Translations under genes and position numbers: made by a program
Source: Hyperoplus lanceolatus
Taxonomy: Eukaryota; Chordata; Actinopteri; Uranoscopiformes; Ammodytidae
DNA length: 64,000 nucleotides
Reading direction: 5' to 3'
Assembly (NCBI GenBank): GCA_026929865.2
Contig: CM049396.1
Span: 25,247,001 to 25,311,000 of the forward strand
Notes under the pieces: model-generated
What the model saw: only the letters and a program-made list of their open reading frames with translations
Database searches by the model: none
Told to the model about the DNA's origin: nothing
Shown: positions 2,335 through 37,000 of the stretch, piece after piece
How the letters are laid out: every line of letters starts with the position of its first letter
How positions within the stretch are numbered: position 1 is the stretch's first letter

Positions 2335-3045
2335 TAACACTTTACAATAAGGTACACAAAATTGTAGTAGCTACTACATACCTACTACATAGATATGTGT
2401 TACCTACTACATAGGTTTTTTTTGTGCTACCTAACACATGGGTTTTTTTTTGTGTTACCTACTACATAGGGTTTTTTTTGTGCTACCTAACACATGATTT
2501 TTTTTTGTGTTACCTACTACATAGGTTTTTTTTTGTGCTACCTAAAACATGTTTTTTTTTTGTGTTACCTACTACATAGGGTTTTTTTTGTGTTACCTAC
2601 ATAGGTTTTTTTTGTGTTACCTACTACATAGGGTTTTTTTTGTGTTACCTACTACATAGGTTTGTTTTTGTGCTACCTAACACATGTTTTTTTTGTGTTA
2701 CCTACTACATAGGGTTTTTTTTTGTGTTACCTACATAGGTTTTTTTTGTGTTACCTACTACATAGGGTTTTTTTTGTGTTACCTACTACATAGGTTATTT
2801 TTGTGCTACCTAACACATAGGTTTGTTTTTGTGCTACCTAACACATGGTTTTTTTTTTTGTGTTACCTACTACATAGGGTTTTTTTTGTGCTACCAATGT
2901 GTTAGGTAACACAAAAAAAAACTATGTAGTAGGTAACACACAAAAAAACCCAATGTGTTAGGTAGCACAAAAAAAAACCTAACACATAGGGTTTTTTCTG
3001 TGTTACCTACTACATAGGGTTTTTTTTGTGCTACCTAACACGCGC
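2335..3045. repeat. Minisatellite with two alternating subunits and an inverted block
   Basis: Units of about 23-30 bp alternate between two types. Type A contains GTGTTACCTACTACATAGG and type B contains GTGCTACCTAACACATGG, each preceded by a T-run of 7-12. Roughly two dozen units are in one orientation. From about 2893 to 2985 the same units appear reverse-complemented (GTGTTAGGTAACACA), then the array flips back. The left edge begins GGTAACACTTTACAATAAGG, a sequence typical of fish DNA-transposon ends, so the array may be the expanded core of a MITE. Confidence 0.9.
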
Positions 3046-19700: not shown

Positions 19701-21161
19701 CGGCCATTCTGGTCCCTTCTTCCATTTGTTTACCTTTGGACAGCGTTGGTCTTTGCCGTGAAGACGAGGTGTATCTCCATTGCATGCGTACAGAGTGGCT
19801 TATGGACATATGCTGCCGGTTGTTGCTGTATGGAACAGTTATATAGCGATACCAGTGAGTATTTGCATCGAGACTGTCTCCTTCCCTCGCCGTGCAACTT
19901 GCTTTCTGTATCCAAATGTTGCTAAGCACAATCATTTAATTGCCATTCCCACACTGGGAGGTGGTAAGCCAAACCCCACTATGACCCTCAAATGTGGGCT
20001 CTTAAATACTAGATCTCTTTCTAGTAAATCCCTATTGATAAATGACTTGATTATTGAACATAAGTTTGATATGATTGGTCTGTGTGAAACATGTCTTCAG
20101 CCAAACTTTTTTCTACCTCTAAATGAGGCCTCTCCTGCTAACTACTCATACTCTCATGTTGCCCGTGATACTGGACGGGGTGGATGTGTTGCCCTTATCT
20201 ATACATCTATTTTAAACCTGAGCTCGAAGAATGACATTAAATGTGATTCATTCGAAGCTATGGTAATGAGGCCACCTCCTGTAAATAGGAAAAATGGCTT
20301 TCATGGGGAGGGTTTCAATCTGGTGGTGGTCTATAGGCCGGTGATTTTAATATTCACCTCAATAAGGCAGCCGATCCCTTAAGGAAAGCCTTTGTTAATA
20401 TTATTGATAACTTTGGTTTCAACCAATTTGTAAATGAACCTACTCACTGTGAGGGAAACACTCTCGACCTCGTCCTCTCCCGTGGGATTTCTGTGACGGC
20501 CCTAAGTGTTTTTCCTGTCACTTCTGTAGTATCTGACCATTTTCTTATTTCTTTCGAGGTTGCCCTGGATTGCCCAAGCGCGGATGATGGAGCAGTGGTA
20601 ACCACTCGCCATATCGGTGCGTCAACTGTAACAACCTTACTGGATCAACTTCCCACGGTCCTGGCCTCCTTAGCACCGGTGACCGAATCTGTCGATAGTC
20701 TGACATCTGCGCTGAACTCAACCCTCTCTACCCTCCTGGATTCTGTGGCACCTCTCTCTGCAAAAACCAGACGAACGATGAGGGCTTCTCCCTGGTTTAC
20801 TCACCACACTCGAGCTCTGAAAAAGGACTGCAGGAGATTCGAACAAATATGGAGATAATCAAAACAAGAGTCCACCTACCGGCCTTGGAGAGAGAGCGTC
20901 TCTATCTACAAACGTGCTTTGAATGTAGCAAAGAAGGCATATTTCTCTTATTAATAGGAATAAGAGTAATCCAAAATTTCTATTTGACACTGTTGCCAAA
21001 CTTACAAAAGAAATGCTATCATCAAATCACTCAATCCACACTGCGCAAAATTTTAATGACTATTTTGATAGTAAAATTACCAATATTAGAAACAAAATCA
21101 GTTCCTTCGGTACAATGAACTGCACGATAGCTACGTGTAAGCGTAATATCGTTTTACTTAA
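19701..21161 (+). mobile_element. L2-like LINE, 5' half (endonuclease region)
   Basis: The apurinic-type endonuclease domain of a non-LTR retrotransposon, which nicks the target DNA to prime reverse transcription. Visible motifs: LLNTRSLSSKSLLIND, IGLCETCLQ (catalytic Glu), DFNIHLNKAADP, and VVSDHFLISF (terminal SDH). The linker ends NFNDYFDSKITNIRNKISS. There are frame shifts near 20345 and 20860-20950 and an apparent small deletion before DFNIHL, so the copy is dead. The frame runs into TTAA at 21158-21161 and resumes at 27570. Confidence 0.85.
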
Positions 21162-21243
21162 AAAGGCCATCTCCGCTCCCACCGCCTGTGCTTCGGCCAT
21201 CTCCGCTTCCCCCCCCCCCCCACAAACCCCACTCCGTTGTGAT

Positions 21244-21310
21244 ACGGCTGTTAAGTCGTGACGTAACACCCTTTCAAAATAAAACTTCCGGGTCCAACCG
21301 CTCCGTCGAA
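21244..21310 (+). repeat. ISL2EU left terminal inverted repeat
   Basis: 67 bp, beginning ACGGCTGTTAAGTCGTGACG. The reverse complement lies at 27138-27203 with two differences. Confidence 0.95.
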
Positions 21311-21333
21311 ATCAAAACAAACATATTGCTACA

Positions 21334-21455
21334 ATGCCGCAGTGCTGTGTTCCCAGCTGTTTGAACAGATCTGAGTAAAAAAAAACGAAGGAATTGTCTT
21401 TTTACCGCTTCCCCATTGATGAAAAGGAGAAGAGGAAATGGCTGCAGCTGATAAG
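21334..21455 (+). CDS. ISL2EU transposase gene, THAP exon 1
   Basis: Encodes MPQCCVPSCLNRSE, then after an in-frame TAA, KTKELSFYRFPIDEKEKRKW. This is the first half of a THAP zinc finger (C-x4-C, the F-Y-R-F-P motif), the site-specific DNA-binding domain of this transposase family. The stop at codon 15 follows an A-run and would end translation, so it may be a recent inactivating change. The exon ends ATAAG before GTAAGT at 21456. Confidence 0.75.
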
Positions 21456-21899
21456 GTAAGTTAAACTTCTTAAACAAAAGAAAAAAGTTTTAGCGCTAGT
21501 GTTTATCTTGTTTAACGTTAACGCTAACGGCTTACTGTTGGCTGTTTAAGTTAACTGGAATTACTCGCAAAAGGTAAACCCTCAAAAAGATATGTGTTTA
21601 AACTGTGTTTTTGTCATATTAATTATACTATCTATGGTCATAATAACCACCCAAGGCTATTTCGGCTATTATTGTCTACAGCCAGCCAGTTAAATTCACC
21701 TGTTTACATTAGGCTACACTCGGCGGCTCAGGTTACTGAACCGTTTCTAAGTCATTATGCACATCTTGGTCGTGATTGTGAATCTTTATGCTCTCCGAGG
21801 ATTTTATCATTGGTACCATTATATTATATTCTGACATGTCCTATGAAGAATTTAGGTAGCCTAATGATGATAATTTTCTCTCTTTCCTTTTTTTAAATA

Positions 21900-23127
21900 G
21901 GCGCAAGAACTTCACCCCAAACTGCAACTCCAGGGTTTGCAGTTGGCATTTCAAAAACGGCAAAGCTGTTGGCCCATCGCGATTTGCCTGGAATGAGGGG
22001 AAGACTTTCCCAACAACAGACAACCTCAGCAAGACCATCAAACACAAGAAGCAAATGGTACCCACCACCAATGAGGAAACTGAAGCCACAGATCAGCCAC
22101 ACTGCCTTGCTAACATTACAACTGCAGATACCCCTAGCACTTCTAAAAGCATTGTGGTGCTTGAAATCGAAAATGATATGCTTAAAAAAGTTGATAAAAT
22201 GATAAACTGAAAAAACAATTGGACATTCAAAAACAAGCTTTTTCCTTCAGGCAGATGTCATCCAACTCTCACAGAGTTCAGTATTTCACCGGATTGCCCG
22301 ATGCTGCCACTGTTTTGTTTTTACAAGCACTTCTTTCTAAATTTGAGCTTCACTATCATTCTGATTGGACTGTCCAATGTATGCCCCTAATTGATCAATT
22401 GTTCCTGACCTTAATAAAATTAAGACTAAATTCTGGCCATGAAGACCTTGCAACACGATTCAATTGTAGCACAGCCACAGTAACAAATATCTTTACCACC
22501 ATTGTTAGTGCGCTTTATCAAATTCTGTATGTCGGTATGCTTGAGAACAACATCCCCTCCACAGCAAAAAATCAAACGTCACTGCCAGAATGCTTTAGAC
22601 CATTCCCAAACTGCAGAATAGTGCTTGACTGCACAGAGGTTGCTGTGTCCAACACCAAGAGACTTGATACACAAAGTCACCTGTACAGCCAGTACAAAGG
22701 GCGGACCACACTCAAAGCACTGATTGGTGTGGCTCCCAATGGCTTCATCACCTTCACTAGTGACCTCTATGGTGGGAGTGCCTCAGACAAGGCAATCACA
22801 GCTGACTGTGGACTTCTCCATCATCTGCAGCCAGGTGACATGGTCATGGCAGACAAGGGCTTCACCATACGGGACATTTTACCAGAGGGAGTTCTGTTGA
22901 ACATCCCATCTTTCCTAATCAACGGACAATTCACACAGGAGGAAGCAAAGAATAACCGCCTAATCTCCTGTGCAAGGATCCATGTGGAGCGCTCTATCCA
23001 GAGACTGAAACTCTACAACATCTTGCGTCACATTCCACACCAGTTTAGAAAAAGCATTAATATGGTTCTGAAAGTATGTGTGTGTCTAACCAACTTGCAG
23101 ACACCCATTCTCCGTGAAATTGAATAA
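21900..23127 (+). CDS. ISL2EU transposase gene, rest of THAP finger and DDE domain
   Basis: After an acceptor TTTTAAATAG, the exon opens RKNFTPNCNSRVCSWHFKNG, supplying the C-x2-H pair that closes the THAP finger. A 1-bp frameshift near 22195-22210 separates it from the long frame. From the Met at 22219 that frame has 302 residues: a helix-turn-helix (LATRFNCSTATVTNIF, about 77-92) and the DDE_Tnp_4 catalytic core, with Asp137 (IVLDCTE), Asp212 (MADKGF) and Glu257 (ARIHVERSIQRLK). This is the IS4/IS5-related nuclease that cuts and joins the element. All three catalytic residues are present. It ends at 23127, convergent with the second gene. Confidence 0.88.
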
Positions 23128-23130
23128 GTT

Positions 23131-23162
23131 GAGCGTGATTATTTACTTCTCCCCTTTTCAGG
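23131..23162 (+). repeat. 32-bp direct repeat, first copy
   Basis: GAGCGTGATTATTTACTTCT followed by CCCCTTTTCAGG, four bases after the transposase stop codon. An identical copy lies exactly 660 bp downstream at 23791-23822. The pyrimidine tract plus CAGG resembles a splice acceptor. Confidence 0.97.
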
Positions 23163-23790
23163 TATTAATGAGTATAATATGGTCTTACATTTTAGAATTA
23201 GTTTGCTTATGTTTCGTGTAAGTTTTGTTAACATTATGACCAAATTTAGAGGTTAAAAGCATTGTTAGAAGCTTTGTTAGAAATTGTTGTATTGACTAGC
23301 TTAAATTGTTTAACTGCTATTCCGCCATGTCCACTAGAGTGCGCCATGAGAGCATGTTTGAGGTTGGTTAAATTAAAATACATGGTGCATATATAAGGTT
23401 GTAATTTAATGCTGAAGTGTGTATTTAGACCTGATTATTGATTTGTTTCATCTATACAATGCAAATCTTTAGAGAGGAACGATAGAAATAACAGAAATGG
23501 GCAATGGCTACAAGTGTAATATTTAATTTATTTCAGTTTACTTCTTTTGAGTTTGTTTAAGGTTTAATAGATTATTATAAACATATTTACATGTTACATT
23601 TGATTTTACTTAGTGAAAAAATGTGAAAATAAAGAAAACAATTAGACAGTTGAGTTTACTATTTGAGTGTGAGGAAATTGTATTATTTTCTGTTTTGATA
23701 CTTTTGTTTTGACAATAATATACCTATGTAAATACTTTTGAAAAAGAAATACAATTCTTGACGAAGCCACGACAGAGAGAGCACTGTGTC

Positions 23791-23822
23791 GAGCGTGATT
23801 ATTTACTTCTCCCCTTTTCAGG
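23791..23822 (+). repeat. 32-bp direct repeat, second copy
   Basis: Identical to 23131-23162. The sequence after it carries AATAAA near 23876 and then a minisatellite, so it may mark a 3' exon or a duplicated segment of the transposon. Confidence 0.97.
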
Positions 23823-23919
23823 GTGCTACATGTTCCCCTTCAAACATATCAAAATACATTATTTGCCGTTTGTATAAATAAACATTTTATTTGTCGAAAA
23901 ACATTGTGTGACTTAATTT

Positions 23920-24040
23920 ATCATTACTGTACAAACTACTTCATTTATCATTACAAACTACTTCATTACTGTAAAAACTACTTCATTTATCATTACTGTA
24001 CAAACTACTTCATTTATCATTACTGTACAAACTACTTAAA
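23920..24040. repeat. Short minisatellite between the two ISL2EU genes
   Basis: About five units of a 17-27 bp motif (TTCATTTATCATTACTGTAC / AAACTAC) in the gap where the two convergent genes end. Confidence 0.9.
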
Positions 24041-24223
24041 AGGACATTAAAGCTGAAGTTGTTAACATATATTTTTCACAGATCATCTAATTCAGCATCA
24101 GTAGTGAAAGTGTAAATAAAATGTACCTACTATTTACAAATTATTAATTCATCTCTGTACAAAAAATAAGGACCAAAAATCATTAATGAACCTGCTCTAT
24201 ATGTGATGGTTGACTTGACAGAA

Positions 24224-24676
24224 CTATGACAGAACATAGGGAAGGAAACACTCTTTAGAAAATGTCTCCAGGGTGTTGATGTTTATGGCCCATGATGGTT
24301 CTTTGAGGATGGGAAGGATGACAAGATCCACAGGAGTCCATACAATGAGGTGACAGCTGCTTGTTCCAGTCAGATGTAGGTTGCCCTGGATTTGATGCCA
24401 ATAATTGTGTGTTGGTTTTAGTGTCAGGGTATCAGTCACTTGGTCCAAGTAAAGATAAAACTCCCTATTCTCTGCTGCCTGTCGGATAGTCTTTGTTCTG
24501 GCTGACCATGGACATTTCACTTCCACAATGCAGTCGTCAGACACCGCCCCATCTGGAGATCCACCGAGCAGGCCACTGTCCGAAAGGAACAAACCCCTCT
24601 CCTGGATGAAGACACTAGTGCTCTCTGTATATTGCTGCTTTGCCCTCGGCTCATGGAGAATTCCCCAATCACATGC
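24224..24676 (-). CDS. ISL2EU second gene, last exon (YqaJ-type exonuclease core)
   Basis: Encodes ACDWGILHEPRAKQQY, then GLLGGSPDGAV, CIVEVKCPWSAR, HNYWHQIQGNLHLTG and HLIVWTP, ending at a TGA/TAG-context stop at 24224. These are the conserved blocks of the YqaJ (lambda exonuclease-like, PD-(D/E)xK) fold; the Asp of SPDG and the Glu-Val-Lys of VEVKCP are the metal-binding and catalytic residues. YqaJ nucleases process DNA ends in phage recombination; their role in ISL2EU transposition is not known. The acceptor is CCCAAG at 24677-24678. No breaks in this exon. Confidence 0.88.
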   Translation of the reverse strand, partial: ACDWGILHEPRAKQQYTESTSVFIQERGLFLSDSGLLGGSPDGAVSDDCIVEVKCPWSARTKTIRQAAENREFYLYLDQVTDTLTLKPTHNYWHQIQGNLHLTGTSSCHLIVWTPVDLVILPILKEPSWAININTLETFSKECFLPYVLS

Positions 24677-24812
24677 CTTGGGAAAGAAACAAAAAATTAA
24701 ATATTATATTAGAAAAAAACCTGCTGATGTTGACAACCACTATTTTATTAAGTGTATTCTTAGGAACACAAATGCTGTCAATTTAAATAATCCCCTACTA
24801 CCTAAAACTTAC

Positions 24813-24944
24813 TTTCGATCCTTGTTTGAGGTTGTACTGGCCAAGCAGTGTTTTAAATAAGGAAGGAGGGTAGGACTTCCGTTTGACTGTTGCCAATACC
24901 AAACCAAAGTTGCTTGCTGTGATCCTTTTTTGCCGATATGCTGA
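24813..24944 (-). CDS. ISL2EU second gene, exon 5
   Basis: Encodes SAYRQKRITASNFGLVLATV and KRKSYPPSLFKTLLGQYNL. The RITASNFG block is the N-terminal signature of the YqaJ domain, placed directly before the exonuclease core in the next exon. Acceptor TTCTACAG at 24946-24945, donor GTAAGT at 24812; phases match the neighbouring exons. Confidence 0.8.
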
Positions 24945-24983
24945 CCTGTAGAAAAACAAAATAAGAGATAGTTCATGTAGACT

Positions 24984-25543
24984 GGGGTCTGTTCCAGAAA
25001 GCAGGTTACATATGTGGACACTCAGAGTAAGTGGATACTCTGAGTTTTCCGTTTCAGTGAGTCAGTTACTCAGGGCAACAGACTCAGCAAACCTAACCTG
25101 CTCGCTGGCAGGTTTGCTTGAACAAACTCTGAGTATGTTTTCATCTTAATGTGAAGAGTGAATGAAGGAAGTGTCAGAACAGCTAGTTCTTCTTTTCAAG
25201 AGCAGATTACTGCAGAAATCTTCATAATTTTTTTTCTATTTAGGCGTGTTCCATAATGATTTGATTTATCATTTAAGATCAATAGCGAATTCTTAGCACT
25301 CATATCTTGTATCTTGATGTTGTAACATCTGTGTTAACATGCTGAGGAATGGGCTTTGGACGTTTAAGTCTTTCATAGTTTCCGATATAAATAAACATCT
25401 GTTTAGAGCACATGGAGAGGGTGGGGGTGTCTCACTTGTCCATACAGTGAATATATCCTACAGTAGGCATACAGTAGCCTAGCCTATACCAGCACAGTTT
25501 TGTGCGAGGACATCTTTTACTTTTACCCCCTGAAACAGACCCC
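24984..25543. mobile_element. Harbinger-like MITE inside an intron of the ISL2EU second gene
   Basis: Ends GGGGTCTGTTCCAG and CTGAAACAGACCCC are inverted repeats. The interior shows CAGAGTAAGTGGATACTCTG and related CTCTGAGT motifs found in a widespread fish MITE. The exact target duplication was not resolved. It sits between exon 4 and exon 5, so it is spliced out and may be neutral to the host transposon. Confidence 0.7.
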
Positions 25544-25681
25544 TGGAGGTCACATACCTGGCTCTTGTTAGAATTTATAATAACTACTACTACTACCACT
25601 ATTATTAACGTGCAGTCGTAAATAACTAGTTTTGTATTGTTTCAGGTTGTTTCTCTTGTTTTTGTTAATGCAGTTTCATAC

Positions 25682-25839
25682 CATAATGCATTCTTTGCTT
25701 GCCCAACCGTGGCTCTTTCGATCTGCTGCTTCTCCTGATCGGTGACCACAAATGAAGACAGCAAATGAAGAGCCTTGTCCTCAGCTTCCGCGTAGTCTGG
25801 GTTGGTCACTAGCCCCTCAAATGTCTTGATAGGGAGAGT
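25682..25839 (-). CDS. ISL2EU second gene, exon 4
   Basis: Encodes TLPIKTFEGLVTNPDYAEAE and HLLSSFVVTDQEKQQIERAT, a charged helical linker preceding the YqaJ domain. It ends with the split Trp codon that joins SAYRQKR in exon 5. Acceptor GAATCTAG at 25841-25840, donor GTATGA. Confidence 0.72.
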
Positions 25840-26018
25840 CTAGATTCAAAGTAAAGTAAACAGATTTAGAAATGCAAATACTTTAATTCCTTTCAAGCCA
25901 ATTACCTTTCAGTTAGGTGGACAAATGTATTGTGAACTCTGTATGCCAAATCGAAATAAATTGTGAGTTCAGTGTATCATTACATCCCTAAACAAACCAC
26001 CTAACACATAAGTCTTAC

Positions 26019-26131
26019 CCGAGGAGTTTCTGGACTCAGAATCCATCCTATTCCAGTAAAACGTCCCAGCTTGGACAGGGTTGCTTGTACCCAGTCTTTA
26101 TCTTCCTGAGTAACAGGTCTTTTAATTCCAG
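26019..26131 (-). CDS. ISL2EU second gene, exon 3
   Basis: Encodes GIKRPVTQEDKDWVQATLSK and LGRFTGIGWILSPETPR. Acceptor CTCATTTCAG, donor GTAAGA. Its first two bases complete the codon split at the end of exon 2, and its last codon is whole, so phases agree with both neighbours. Confidence 0.72.
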
Positions 26132-26468
26132 CTGAAATGAGAAAATGACATGATAAAGCATGAGTGTAAGGTGGCAATGTATGATAAATATGATTCATTG
26201 CATCAGAGAAGCCAGCTTGACAGATATTTTTAAAGGAAAACTTAAATCTATAGCCTAGCATTTCAATAGCTTTCCAATGTTCTCTGCTGAACTTTTAATT
26301 TTATAATTACCTTATTTGACTGACATTTACCTTCTCATTGTTTTATTTACTGCTTTTATTAGTTAATTGCTGTTCTCTGGTCTGAAATATGCTACACACA
26401 TTACGTTAATTATTATGATTACACCACATAACGTAAAAGAAAGCATCACTTGCAAATGAATGACTAAC

Positions 26469-26680
26469 CTTGTGTTGTGGATGGCGTTATCTCAGACACT
26501 CTCTTTGCTGCTATCTGGTCGGTTGTTCGGTGTCTTCGCCCTCTTCCAAGCACACTCCACGTCGGTGCGGGACACATTTTTCTCAACCCATATGAGAACT
26601 GCCGCCATATGGTGGCACTTATCCCGACCGATTGGGCACTGGCAGCTGCTGTACTTTACTGTCTGTCCCTCAACATGAAC
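26469..26680 (-). CDS. ISL2EU second gene, exon 2 (SWIM zinc finger)
   Basis: Encodes VHVEGQTVKYSSCQCPIGRD then KCHHMAAVLIWVEKN. CQC-x6-C-x-H is the SWIM zinc-finger pattern (C-x-C-xn-C-x-H), a nucleic-acid or protein-binding module also found in MULE and other transposases. A 1-bp frameshift near 26500 puts the exon end (VSEITPSTTQ) in another frame; the exon length of 212 bp is one base off the phase expected from exon 3, which confirms it. Donor GTTAGT at 26468. Confidence 0.75.
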
Positions 26681-26942
26681 CTATATTGAACACAATTCCC
26701 TTACACTAGCTCATCTCAAAGAGACTAACCTTAGCCTAACAATACAAGGGGCTGGCAGATGTATGTCAACTTTCATAACTTCACTTAAATTACAAAACAT
26801 GACCTAGGCCTATATATGTTTAGTTTCAGCTTCATTTAAGTTCAACGTTTTACCAGTCCTGTACTGATGTTGAGTATTACTTAATTCAATAACGTATCAT
26901 CTTTAACGGTAACTAGATGTCAACGGCTAACTTCCAACTCAC

Positions 26943-27122
26943 CTCAACCTCGTGAACTTTCTTTTTCTGTGATGCCTGGACGCTACCCTTTATAACTCCC
27001 CCAGGCAAAACAGCTACACTGACTACTCTGTTGGAGTGAAAAGAATTCAATCCTTTCTTGACTCTTTCAGGTGTCTCACTGAAGAAAGAAGTTAATGTAA
27101 AAATGTTCACCGGTTCAGCCAT
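26943..27122 (-). CDS. ISL2EU second gene, first coding exon
   Basis: Sixty complete codons from MAEPVNIFTLTSFFSETPER to KKKVHEVE, ending at donor GTGAGT. The ATG lies 16 bp inside the right terminal repeat, so its promoter is probably in or near that repeat. The N-terminus has no domain I recognise. All six exons together give a protein of roughly 415 residues. Confidence 0.75.
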
Positions 27123-27137
27123 CGTTGTTTGTTTATG

Positions 27138-27203
27138 TTCGACGGAGCGGTTGGACCCGGAAGTTTTATTTTGAAAGGGTGTTACGTCACGCTTAACAGC
27201 CGA
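27138..27203 (-). repeat. ISL2EU right terminal inverted repeat
   Basis: 66 bp; reverse complement begins TCGGCTGTTAAGCGTGACGT, nearly identical to 21244-21310. Confidence 0.95.
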
Positions 27204-27573
27204 ATTGGTTACCTTCCTTCCGGAACTCTTTCAGTGGCGGGAAGCGCGAGCATGGACCTATAAGGGCGTGAGGCAGACGCGAACAGGGAAGTGACAGCAT
27301 TACTATACATGGAAACATCCGTGTGGTGACGACACCAAGTTACATGCGACGTCACAAAGTTACAAAGCCTAAACCGCTTTGAACACGTGACTTCTCGACT
27401 GGCTAGAATAGTGTCTAGTGCTCTGCACGGACACCCCAGACGGTCAGCAGGGAATACGTCGAAATGCATGTAAGTCATTATTTGATAATTTCTTATGGTT
27501 AAGCATGACTATAAATCATCATAACAACGTTTATAGGTCATAATAGTCAAAAAGCATCATAGGTCCTCTTTAA

Positions 27574-29202
27574 TAACTTTGAGCCCGTTCCGTATGAAGA
27601 ACTGACTCACATAGTCAAAAACTCACAACCAACGACCTGCCTTCTTGATCCCTTGCCTGCCAAATTGTTCAAAGAACTCTGGCAAACCCTGGGTCCTACA
27701 ATACATGATGTTGTCAACCTTTCATTAATGACTGATACTGTTCCCACTTCCTTTAAGGCTGCTGTGGTGAAACCCCTTCTCAAGAAACTCAATTTGGATC
27801 CCGATGATCTGAGTATTTATCGCCCAGTGTCAAATTTGTCTTTTTTATCAAAAATACGAGAACGTGTAGTGGCGCAACAGCTCTCTGATCACTTGACTAG
27901 TAATCAACTTTTTGAACCGTTTCAGTCTGCCTTCTCACTCGACTGAAACCGCGCTCCTTAAAGTACTTAATGATACTCTGTTGATGATGGACTCCAATAC
28001 TGCCTCGGTGCTTCTATTGTTGGACCTCAGTGCAGCGTTTGACACCATCGACCATGACATACTCCTGGATCGGCTCGAAAACCTGTTTGGCTTTACAGGG
28101 CCGGCGCACGATTGGCTGAAATCATACCTATCCAGTAGAACTCAGTGCGTCTCCTACAACAACAGTACATCCATATTCACTGACGTGAAATACGGAGTAC
28201 CTCAAGGGTCTGATGGACCTCTGCTTTTCTCTTTGTATATTTCTCCGATTGGTCAAATTATTCATAGCTTCAGGGTCAATTTTCACTGCTATGCGGACGA
28301 TACTCAGCTCTATGTCCCGGTCAAAGTCAATGATGTTACTCAAATCGCTAATTTAGAGGCCTGCCTGTCCGCTGTTAAAAGCTGGATGTCACAAAACTTT
28401 CTGCTCTTAAATTCAGAAAAAACTGAATTGTTATTAATCGGCCCCGCACATGTTAGAAATCAGCTTGAGCAACTGACAATTAATTCCGACAATTGCGTTA
28501 TCTCTCAAAGCTTAACAGCAAGAAATCTTGGTGTTAAGTTCGACTCCAACCTGTCCTTTGATCAACACATCAAAGAGATTACCAAAACTGCGTTTTTTCA
28601 CTTACAGAACATATCAAAAATACGATCCAGTCTGTCCTTGGCTGATGCGGAAATATTAATACATGCCTTCGTATATTCTCGGCTTGACTATTGTAACGTA
28701 CTACTGTCTGGGTTGCCCAGGGCAAGTACTTGAAGTTTACAAAAGGTACAAAATGCTGCGGCGAGGCTTTTGACTAGAACTAGAAAATACGACCTCATCA
28801 CCCCCGTTCTTGCGTCGCTCCACTGGCTTCCGGTTCATGTCAGATCCGACTTTAAGGTGCTGCTATTGACCAATAAGGCATTAAATGGGCTTGCACCTTC
28901 ATATTTGTCTGACCTAGTTGCGCGATATGCCCCATCACGGGCACTACGGTCTACGACTGCAGAGCTCCTGTCTGTCCCCAGAGTTAAGAAAGCGGCCGGC
29001 AGCAGGGCTTTCTCGTATCGTATAGAGATCAGACAATCTGAGTCTATCGAGGTGTTCAAGTCTAAACTTAAGACTTATCTCTTTGAATTTACTTTTGATT
29101 AGCGCTCGTCCACCTCTCTGCTGGCGCGGGGTCGGGTCACCCTGTCTGGGGTCGGTTCTCTGGCCTCTGCTGGGGGGGAGTTTGCTCTGGGGTAGGCAGT
29201 GT
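27574..29202 (+). mobile_element. L2-like LINE, 3' half (reverse transcriptase)
   Basis: The reverse transcriptase domain continues the LINE begun at 19.7 kb. Motifs in order: CLLDPLPAKLFKELWQTLGP, YRPVSNLSFLSK, VLLLLDLSAAFDTIDHDILL, YGVPQGSDGPLLFSLYI and HCYADDTQLYVPV (catalytic YADD near 28290), then the C-terminal LTTRKYDLITPVLASLHWLP region. Frameshifts occur near 27945 and 28735-28770, so it is inactive. A short GC-rich 3' UTR follows the stop near 29102 and is cut by a hAT fragment at 29203. Confidence 0.88.
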
Positions 29203-34276: not shown

Positions 34277-36039
34277 CAGGGGTGGCCAACCAGTCAGAGA
34301 CAAAGAGCCACATTTTTTACTGTGTTACTGCAAAGAGCCACATCGTACACACGGGTACACACAGTGGCGATTCCAGGAAATTTTGACTGGGGGTGGCCAA
34401 GGTGGGCCACAGAGTTAGAGTGGGGTGGCCATCGCACCCCTGAATGAATAGCATGTGATATGCTGTACAACCAATTCAAAGATGATTTATAATCCCAAAT
34501 GCCCAAATCATGTTAGTATCCATTGTAATGTTTGTCAGAAAACTAAACCCCTGAAGGGGGATCTGGGGGCATCTCCCCCCAGAAGATTTTTTTGTGTTTT
34601 TAACATGTAATCTAAGCATTCTGGTGCATTCTCGCGAAGATAATAAAGGAAAAAGTCAATATTTATTTCAGCTCAGATGAATAGTAAAATTATCAAGACA
34701 ACATAACTTGCTAGCAGCCAGATGCCTAACAACTGGACAGAGGGACGGATGACCACTAGCTTTTGACCAAATATCTTGCTAAAAAAATAAACCTTTATTT
34801 ATGAAAGTCTGCCCTTGCTAAGAACATGTTACACTCGCTAACTACAAACTTTAATTTTTTTATTCAGATTTCAAAAATCTGCTGGGACACGTGCCTATAC
34901 ACATGCATGGGTGGCACGCATGTCACAAGCACACTTATGCTGTTTTCAAGACCTTTGCTGACCAGAGACCAGTTCTAGTGGCCACAGTCCTATCATTAAT
35001 TTAGTAATAGAAAATTGCAAACTGATCTCATATCAGTGGATTGGAGTGTTTGTGTGATGAACTTGGCAACTACCTATCAAAAAAAGTTAAGAAAGAAAAA
35101 AATAAATATCATCTCTGAACTAGGATACATATCAGGAAAAAAATTTAATTAAAAAAATAAAATGTAAATAAAAAATAACATTTGAACTGGGGGGGGTCAC
35201 TGGGGTGGCCAGTAAGATTTCAGGGGGGGGGGGGGGGGGTTTTTATTTTCGCGGGAGCTTGCACATGCATGCACAAGCATTATTTATTAAAAAAAAAAAA
35301 AAAAAAAAAAGAAAAAGGGGGCCCCACACTAGGACTTGAAACGGGCCCCCAGATCGTTAAGGCCGCCCCTGTGATAATGACAGGACTGGACGAAAGACGA
35401 CAGGGCAGTCATTTTCAACAATGAACATTGTGTGCACTGCCTCACACACAAACTCTCAGTTCAACCAAGTCCACAAACAAAAATATAACAATTTAAAATA
35501 GCGTTTTTCTCTTACTATGCATGTTGCTTTGTGGGACTTACTTGTAGCATGGAGAGAGCTGAAGTGGCGCTGCAGATTTGAAGCATTGAAATGCGCAAAT
35601 GACACCTGGCAATAAGGCAGAATGGCTTGGCATAACGTTCAACAAAAAATATGAACTCTCCCACTCTGTTTCGGAGCGAACTTGACACAAATAGTTTACT
35701 CACGGAAAACCTCCCTCCAAGCTGAGCGGGCAGTTTTATGTTGCGTCCGCACCAAACGTTTGCGAACGTTATGTTGCGTCCTCAAATAAACATTTGCGAA
35801 CAGGCATACACATAGGGCCTACACATTAATAAAATAAAAAATTAAATAATAGACAACATGTAAAACGAACGTAAGAGCCGCATGAAACGTTTGCGAACAT
35901 GCACACACATAGGCCCACACAAAAAAAAAGTATAAAAAAAATTTAAAAAAAAATTATAATCACATAATTTGATATGAACTGAAGAGCCGCACGAAGCTGG
36001 GCAGAGAGCCGCTCGCGAGCCGCGGGTTGGCCACCCCTG
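34277..36039. mobile_element. Non-autonomous hAT element (1763 bp) in the piggyBac tail
   Basis: Termini CAGGGGTGGCCAACC and GGTTGGCCACCCCTG are perfect 15-bp inverted repeats. The 8-bp duplication GTCTAGGG flanks it (34269-34276, 36040-36047). The interior is composite: another hAT-like start (CAGTGGCGATTCCAGG) at 34362, a poly-G run, and a hAT-like end (AAGGCCGCCCCTG) at 35371. No transposase. Confidence 0.92.
35215..35371. repeat. hAT-like terminal repeat family, copy 2
   Basis: Poly-G, TTTTTATTTTCGCGGGAGC, an A-run, and CAGATCGTTAAGGCCGCCCC. Matches the copies at 4775-4957 and 50934-51109. Confidence 0.75.
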
Positions 36040-37000
36040 GTCTAGGGCAATATTGAACCTTCCTTACTGAGAGCTGAGAGTGTTCTTAACATTTTGATAT
36101 GAATCACCTGGGTATTATGTTATCACTTGCCCTCTAAAATGGTAATTTATAAAAGCATGTAAATCGAGAAAATGCCCTGAAACCTAACCCCGTAAAACGT
36201 TTGGACAAAAAATAATTTTTGTCATGTTTTTTGTACTTCTCAACCTTTTTTTGGAAAAATTCCAGTGTATTTTAGAAGCTAATGTTTTGGAGAGGCAATT
36301 TCAAGAGCCAAAACAATTTGTCCTGGGGAATAAAGGTATTATTACACATAAGTTTCCAAATTTTTCAAAAATCTTACTTCAAATTGCAGTTTCCAAATTT
36401 TTCAAAAATCTTACTTCAAATTGCAGCTTTTGTGTCAAAATATTTTTTTTCACATTGGTCTAGGACAAAATTGAAACTCCCTAATATAGAGCTGGCAGTG
36501 TTCTGAACATTTTGATATGAATCACCTGGGTATTATGTTATCTACTTGCCCTCTAAAATGGTAATTTATAAAAGCATGTAAAATCGAGAAAATGCCCTTA
36601 GATCTCAACCCAAAAAATGTTTGGACAAAAAGATCATTTTAGTCATGTTTTTTGCTCTTCCCAACCTTTTTATGGAAAAATTCCAGTACATTTTAGAAGC
36701 TAATGTTTTGGAGAAGCAATTTCAATAGCCAAAATAATTCAATCAGATGAATAAAGGTATTATTTCACACAAATTTCGAAATTTTTCAAAAATCGGACTT
36801 CAAATTTCAACATTTATGTCAAAATATTTTTTTTTACATTGGACTAGGGCAACATTGAACCTTCCACACTGAGAGCTGAGCGTGTTCTGAACATTTTGAT
36901 ATGAATCACCTGGGTATTATGTTATCTACTTGCCCTCTAAAATGGTAATTTATAAAAGCATGTAAAATCGAGAAAAAGGCCTCAGGGCCCAGAGGGTTAA

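Follow-up and report, generated by a model that had tools for sequence, protein, structure and literature searches.

A fairly recent, inactivated two-gene ISL2EU transposon with a SWIM-YqaJ exonuclease gene in the fish Hyperoplus lanceolatus

ISL2EU elements are eukaryotic DNA transposons that duplicate AT at the target A|AT|T and encode a transposase with DDE, HTH and THAP parts together with a second protein that carries a YqaJ domain (PMC4482050). The two-gene plan has been described in teleosts, where transcription was reported and was testis-biased in medaka gonads (PMC9179366). ISL2EU and Spy were placed as sister clades (PMC11304231), and ISL2EU was included in a further phylogeny, in a study whose text, in the portion available here, contains neither 'YqaJ' nor 'exonuclease' (PMC12730594). 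In a scallop and a clam, YqaJ families are among those that change in number (PMC10225492, PMC7826175). A phage-type exonuclease thus belongs to a group of eukaryotic transposons, and the passages considered from four of these sources report no function for it (PMC4482050, PMC9179366, PMC12730594, PMC11304231); within limited searches this agrees with a first-pass annotation of the present locus, which had called the role of the enzyme not established. Here we describe an element in a stretch of 64,000 nucleotides from the fish Hyperoplus lanceolatus (contig CM049396.1, positions 25,247,001 to 25,311,000, hereafter the window). We identify it as a two-gene cut-and-paste element of the ISL2EU group, a copy that is fairly recent but no longer active (Table 1). 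That ISL2EU elements combine a THAP-DDE transposase with a YqaJ exonuclease has been published before (PMC4482050, PMC9179366). New here are the convergent layout in 21 of 21 two-gene loci, a SWIM-type motif upstream of YqaJ in all four further families in which it was sought, and purifying selection on the exonuclease in most comparisons.

It is close to certain that the element is a DNA transposon fitting the published ISL2EU group. Its domains, its near-identical ends, its AT duplication and the six-exon gene on the minus strand all agree with the earlier proposal of an ISL2EU-like element with two convergent genes. The terminal inverted repeats, previously described as almost identical, are 100% complementary over 54 bp, and the only differences between the arms are a single inserted base and the outermost position. 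The inserted base looks like a family trait: all five left ends printed (window, L039, L040, L042, L043) have it, and the right ends of the window, L040, L041 and L044 all lack it. AT also flanks the four further left ends and the right ends of the window, L040, L041 and L044, as well as those of L045 and L046, two diverged loci that resemble each other in their flanks; the right ends of L039 and L047 are damaged. The right flank of the element is part of a high-copy host repeat (40 matches were scored of 1267 candidates). In 11 of 11 other repeat copies fetched (L049-L059), a single alignment spans the joined flanks; it reaches the end of the right flank, or comes close to it, and includes the inner 57-79 bp of a 200-bp left flank. 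These copies are paralogous empty sites. Four of them, read letter by letter, have a single AT at the insertion point. Continuous empty sites with a single AT demonstrate an insertion with AT duplication.

The exonuclease gene runs on the minus strand from 27122 down to 24224, is convergent with the transposase gene and codes for an N-terminal part, the SWIM-type motif and the YqaJ domain. As had been noted before, splice borders (GT..AG) and phases agree for all six exons save for one frameshift inside exon 2, and wherever alignment with eight other copies or fragments was possible, the introns of both genes are likewise GT..AG. The predicted protein matches the YqaJ profile with E=5.7e-19 and, more weakly, Viral_alk_exo with 4.5e-08. 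Among solved structures the best matches were phage-type enzymes (3syy, 7.1e-07; lambda exonuclease, 7.1e-05), and the SPDG and E-x-K stretches are aligned in the structure alignments shown. Further matches were obtained with phage exonuclease and RecE-like families (5.1e-12 and 1.9e-10) and with 16 records in phage genomes (best 7e-11); four pattern-matching stretches in viral contigs yielded no confirmed relative of the exonuclease. For the transposase, profile searches returned DDE_Tnp_4, HTH_Tnp_4 and THAP, the last with E=3.7e-15 when the stop codon was written as X and 1.4e-10 for the part after the stop. Residues D144, D219 and E264 in the frame from 22198, aligned with the other families, are the candidate DDE triad, an assignment that presumes the familiar motif. 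The transposase gave no match to solved structures up to E=10, and no confirmed relative among 7 pattern-matching stretches in viral contigs and 28 in prokaryote contigs.

The first-pass annotation had regarded the element as nearly intact. This was too generous, because the transposase gene contains an in-frame stop and a frameshift, both unmentioned at that time, in addition to the frameshift in the exonuclease gene; as read, neither protein can be made whole. The frame that exon 1 sets for the transposase ends after 102 residues of exon 2. L042, a 5% diverged C15 copy, shares the stop at codon 15 with the window, and this stop may be old, recurrent or converted. Since the start codons of the transposase and exonuclease genes lie only 23 bp and 15 bp, respectively, from the inner arm ends, both genes probably take promoter or leader sequence from the arms. 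The terminal repeat at 21244-21310 also contains TGACGTAA and ACTTCCGG, upstream of both start codons, which we take to resemble CREB/ATF and ETS promoter motifs.

Lambda-type exonucleases resect 5' ends for homologous recombination, and their fold is that of a processive 5'-3' exonuclease. By analogy, we tentatively propose that the transposon exonuclease resects the break at the donor site so that repair recopies the element, a role that we consider plausible though somewhat short of an even chance. In such a cycle the THAP domain would bind the terminal repeats and the DDE domain would cut the element out, in keeping with a cut-and-paste element by domain content. The SWIM part would bring the exonuclease to element DNA, where the YqaJ domain would degrade the 5' ends of the donor break. 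The break might then be repaired by homologous copying from the sister chromatid, which would restore the donor copy and raise the copy number. We consider the explanation as a whole, identity plus resection role and weighted to identity, likely. The processive 5'-3' fold of lambda exonuclease, matched here by similarity, would also suit an enzyme that removes by-products such as excised DNA and unligated flaps, or that acts in integration instead of donor repair. This alternative is unlikely in our view, as the AT duplication is clean and the other ends are AT-flanked, so that no end trimming is visible at the target.

The genome (807 Mb in 527 contigs) was searched for further copies, and all copy counts are lower bounds. 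The left arm gave at least 13 matches at at least nine loci, window included, of which two are the window's own ends; other copies with the same ends, which the first-pass annotation had proposed to look for, do exist. Noncoding divergence from the window is 1.0% for L039, 1.1% for L043, 2.1% for L040, 2.0% for L044, 5.2% for L041 with L042 and 6.3% for L046. The two smallest values indicate that the element is fairly recent, and the earlier description of it as young was reasonable. All six exonuclease exons were at least partly found in five copies (window, L039, L040, L041, L044), and the gene is open through the six exons in two of these, namely L039 and, with an in-frame loss in exon 2, L040. 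In L041 the exonuclease gene has lost the frame in exon 1, is interrupted by a stop in exon 4 and encodes a lysine in place of the catalytic glutamate; in L044 exon 1 carries a stop, and exons 4 and 6 have suffered losses. In L043, exons 2-6 are open, and exon 1 and the right end are missing. A fragment, L065, has exons 3-6 open with neither end visible; it runs into unreadable letters and stands outside the counts given below. The transposase gene is open throughout in none of four checked copies without the deletion described next (window, L039, L042, L043): L043 has an open exon 2 (406 residues) and a stop in exon 1, and L039 shows the reverse. L040 and L044 have the same transposase deletion, from element position 1281 to 2555, and retain most of the exonuclease gene. 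The shared breakpoints suggest that a derivative class without its own transposase was probably mobilised after the deletion. Several families, copies diverged by about 1%, empty sites and transposase-less derivatives provide material to test whether the exonuclease steers donor repair.

The ratio of nonsynonymous to synonymous substitution rates (dN/dS) was determined between copies with codons near frameshifts excluded; the pairs share sequences, and the p-values are neither independent nor corrected. For the exonuclease, the window gave 0.17 against L041 (p=1.6e-8), 0.27 against L040 (p=0.0019), 0.20 against L043 (p=0.013), 0.26 against L044 (p=0.0069), 0.40 against L046 (p=0.022), and 0.33 and 0.30 against the fragments L045 (p=0.011) and L047 (p=0.0047). 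Of nine further pairs, seven gave values of 0.09-0.30, those of L041 against L039, L040, L043 and L044 among them at 0.09-0.21. For the transposase, the window gave 0.23 against L041 (p=9.9e-6), 0.34 against L046 (p=1.1e-5), 0.35 against L043 (p=0.11) and 0 against L039 (p=0.00049), compared with 0.82 and 0.80 against the deleted copies L040 (p=0.73) and L044 (p=0.76). Codon changes among the copies reveal purifying selection on both genes in the source lineage. Our conclusion is that constraint acted on the exonuclease in the ancestral lineage of the copies, and that individual copies decay once inserted.

Several observations weigh against this constraint or against the role proposed for the enzyme. 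The exonuclease appears unconstrained between the window and L039 (0.59, p=0.44), between L040 and L044 (0.82, p=0.76) and between L041 and L046 (1.27, p=0.8), and the sharing of sequences and the uncorrected p-values limit what the pairwise values can carry. On their own branches L040 and L044 are relaxed in both genes, with 1 synonymous and 6 nonsynonymous changes in the exonuclease of L040 and 1 and 4 in that of L044, as expected of decaying copies. Selection, moreover, leaves undecided which step the enzyme serves, and no annealing-protein gene was seen in the element. Phage Red systems include an annealing protein.

The low values of L040 and L044 against the window (0.27 and 0.26) had raised the possibility of selection on the exonuclease after the transposase was lost. 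The value of 0.82 (p=0.76) between the two shows that the constraint signal does not come from after their split. With L041, L039 and the window used to polarise the changes, the stem leading to L040 and L044 counts 2 synonymous and 0 nonsynonymous for the exonuclease and 0 and 4 for the transposase remnant; the difference is not significant (p=1/15), and the stem includes time before the deletion. This is a hint that the exonuclease outlived the transposase in this lineage. A doubtful extension is that an ISL2EU element gains in cis from its exonuclease even when its own transposase catalytic domain has been lost; if true, copies of the L040/L044 kind would be exonuclease-keeping, transposase-borrowing elements.

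The two genes also occur together beyond this family. Genome searches gave 72 transposase matches and, with exonuclease exon 6, 34 YqaJ matches; for 30 of these the start lies no more than 5 kb from that of a DDE match, and some are pieces of one and the same gene. Thirty loci were fetched around the best transposase matches with 1.5 kb on each side. Both genes are present in 21 of them, about 19 distinct elements given that some loci are pieces of one, and their arrangement is convergent in 21/21. The loci fall into families A (window), B (L015, L016), C (L021, L025, L027), D (L022, L023, L029, L038), E (L034) and F (L031). Trees built from 13 loci join A with B for both genes (transposase 99/98, YqaJ 84/90) and likewise unite C and D in one group (100/99 and 100/100), within which the YqaJ tree does not set D apart from C; the positions of E and F are unreliable, several YqaJ rows are short, and the tree program issued a long-branch warning. 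The arms of family B share the core GCTGTTAAGCG with the right arm of family A. L015 and L061 of family B have a single frame from the SWIM motif through YqaJ, and the introns of family A are therefore not general. It is conceivable that the exonuclease gene is passive cargo or that the genes are adjacent by chance, given that 9/30 loci have no YqaJ match within 1.5 kb (the flanks are short) and that some Harbinger-like elements may do without one. The convergent pairing, the recovery of the A-B and C-D groups in both gene trees and the purifying selection in most exonuclease comparisons make this highly improbable.

In the window copy the SWIM-type motif CxCx(n)CxH is present, and the Pfam profile (PF04434) gives E=0.0015 and 18.5 bits, below the gathering cut-off of 19.6. 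The same motif lies upstream of YqaJ and on the same strand in four of four further families (B, C, D and E, one locus each), with the Pfam profile passed by family B (22.7 bits), reaching 12.5 bits in D and giving no match in C and E. The scan also gave two chance-like matches in L062, and the motif is consequently weak when taken alone. From the motif and the relatives together we read the SWIM finger as real but divergent. Of the earlier SWIM-YqaJ call, the YqaJ half holds on its profile score, and the SWIM half finds backing in motif and relatives and not in the profile score of this copy. In the literature searched no mention of a SWIM part in ISL2EU was found, most subscription papers and Repbase reports being outside its scope. 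YqaJ scores above the cut-off in families B, C and D; SPDG is kept in 11 of the 12 rows covering it, the remaining row having a stop at this place, and E-x-K in 12/12, with the dead copy L041 outside this set of rows.

These observations bear on the main rival to donor resection, in which the SWIM-YqaJ protein is chiefly a DNA-binding and recruitment partner of the transposase and its nuclease activity is secondary. It draws on the recurrence of the SWIM-type motif upstream of YqaJ in the window family and the four others, and on PIF/Harbinger, in which a DNA-binding, Myb-like second protein is needed for transposition according to the passages considered (PMC9179366). However, nuclease residues kept across deeply split families would be needless for pure binding, and the THAP and HTH parts of the transposase already offer DNA binding. 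We judge this rival somewhat unlikely and retain resection of the donor break as the preferred, if tentative, role.

Table 1. Features of the ISL2EU element and its immediate surroundings (window positions).
Feature	Position	Strand	Remarks
ISL2EU transposon	21244-27203		5960 bp, nested insert included
Left target-site copy, AT	21242..21243		
Left terminal inverted repeat	21244..21310	+	67 bp, one base longer than right arm
Transposase exon 1	21334..21455	+	start of THAP domain; in-frame stop at codon 15
Transposase intron	21456..21900	+	GT..AG
Transposase exon 2	21901..23127	+	remaining THAP, HTH_Tnp_4, DDE_Tnp_4; one frameshift
HTH_Tnp_4 match	22378..22527	+	E=1e-14, residues 61-110 of frame from 22198
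DDE_Tnp_4 match	22624..23094	+	E=1.3e-40
35-bp direct repeat, first copy	23128..23162	+	
35-bp direct repeat, second copy	23788..23822	+	
Exonuclease exon 6	24224..24676	-	YqaJ core, SPDG and EVK residues
Exonuclease exon 5	24813..24945	-	start of YqaJ domain
Nested MITE-like insert	24985..25542		558 bp, intron 4 of exonuclease gene, ends GGGTCTGTTYCAG
Exonuclease exon 4	25682..25839	-	
Exonuclease exon 3	26019..26131	-	
Exonuclease exon 2	26469..26680	-	SWIM-type motif; frameshift downstream of motif
SWIM-type motif CxCx6CxH	26609..26644	-	
Exonuclease exon 1	26943..27122	-	start codon 15 bp inside right arm
Right terminal inverted repeat	27138..27203	-	66 bp
Right target-site copy, AT	27204..27205		

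Within the element lies an insert that resembles a miniature inverted-repeat transposable element (MITE). It is flanked by CTG (24982-24984 and 25543-25545; ends and CTG were read by eye), and CWG is the published target of NuwaI (PMC4482050, in the part available). The insert was considered for dating the window copy and rejected, being present in all six other copies comparable there (L039, L040, L041, L043, L044, L046) and hence older than their spread. Between the two genes, two 35-bp direct repeats (97%) bracket 625 bp. In L043 a single repeat remains and the intervening stretch is missing, L039 and the older L046 have both, and the deletion of L040 and L044 also terminates within the second repeat. 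Deletion breakpoints were not used as evidence of annealing repair, as the junctions other than that of L043 overlap by 0-3 bases, counted by eye, with one tandem-repeat stretch as the exception. Outside the element, the host repeat occupies 27204-27563; its far end reads TTAAAGAGGACC in the paralogue L049, and nearly so in L052, and it is possibly a TTAA-target element. The farther flanks, 20337-20858 and 27563-27946, resemble endonuclease and reverse transcriptase parts of a long interspersed nuclear element (LINE; Pfam matches below cut-off), and the element and its host repeat may accordingly be nested in a LINE. Other repeated stretches in the self-comparison of the window lie at 36038-36985 and 2379-3041.

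Set beside the described systems, the element shares with published ISL2EU the two genes, the DDE, HTH and THAP transposase, the YqaJ second gene and the AT duplication, and its arms of 67 and 66 bp fall within the ISL2EU range of 6-259 bp (PMC4482050). It differs from the passages of that source in ends that start ACGG/TCGG instead of GG, a start that is usual there but not strictly required, in a G instead of an A to the left of AT, so that the outer base fits A|AT|T on the right only (here G|AT|T), in a length of 5960 bp with the nested insert compared with a mean of about 4840, and in its six-exon exonuclease gene and SWIM motif, SWIM being unnamed there (PMC4482050). Teleost ISL2EU elements have the same two-gene plan; the text available for them has no word starting with 'SWIM' and aligns second proteins for Harbinger only (PMC9179366). 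With lambda-type phage exonucleases and the YqaJ family (PF09588) the second protein has the domain and the aligned catalytic stretches in common, whereas here the domain is joined to a SWIM part, split by introns and carried by a eukaryotic transposon in which no annealing-protein partner was seen. PIF/Harbinger elements likewise combine a DDE transposase with a second, DNA-binding protein, but they use a TWA target and a Myb/SANT second protein (PMC4482050, passages considered), in place of which the present element has an AT duplication and a YqaJ gene.

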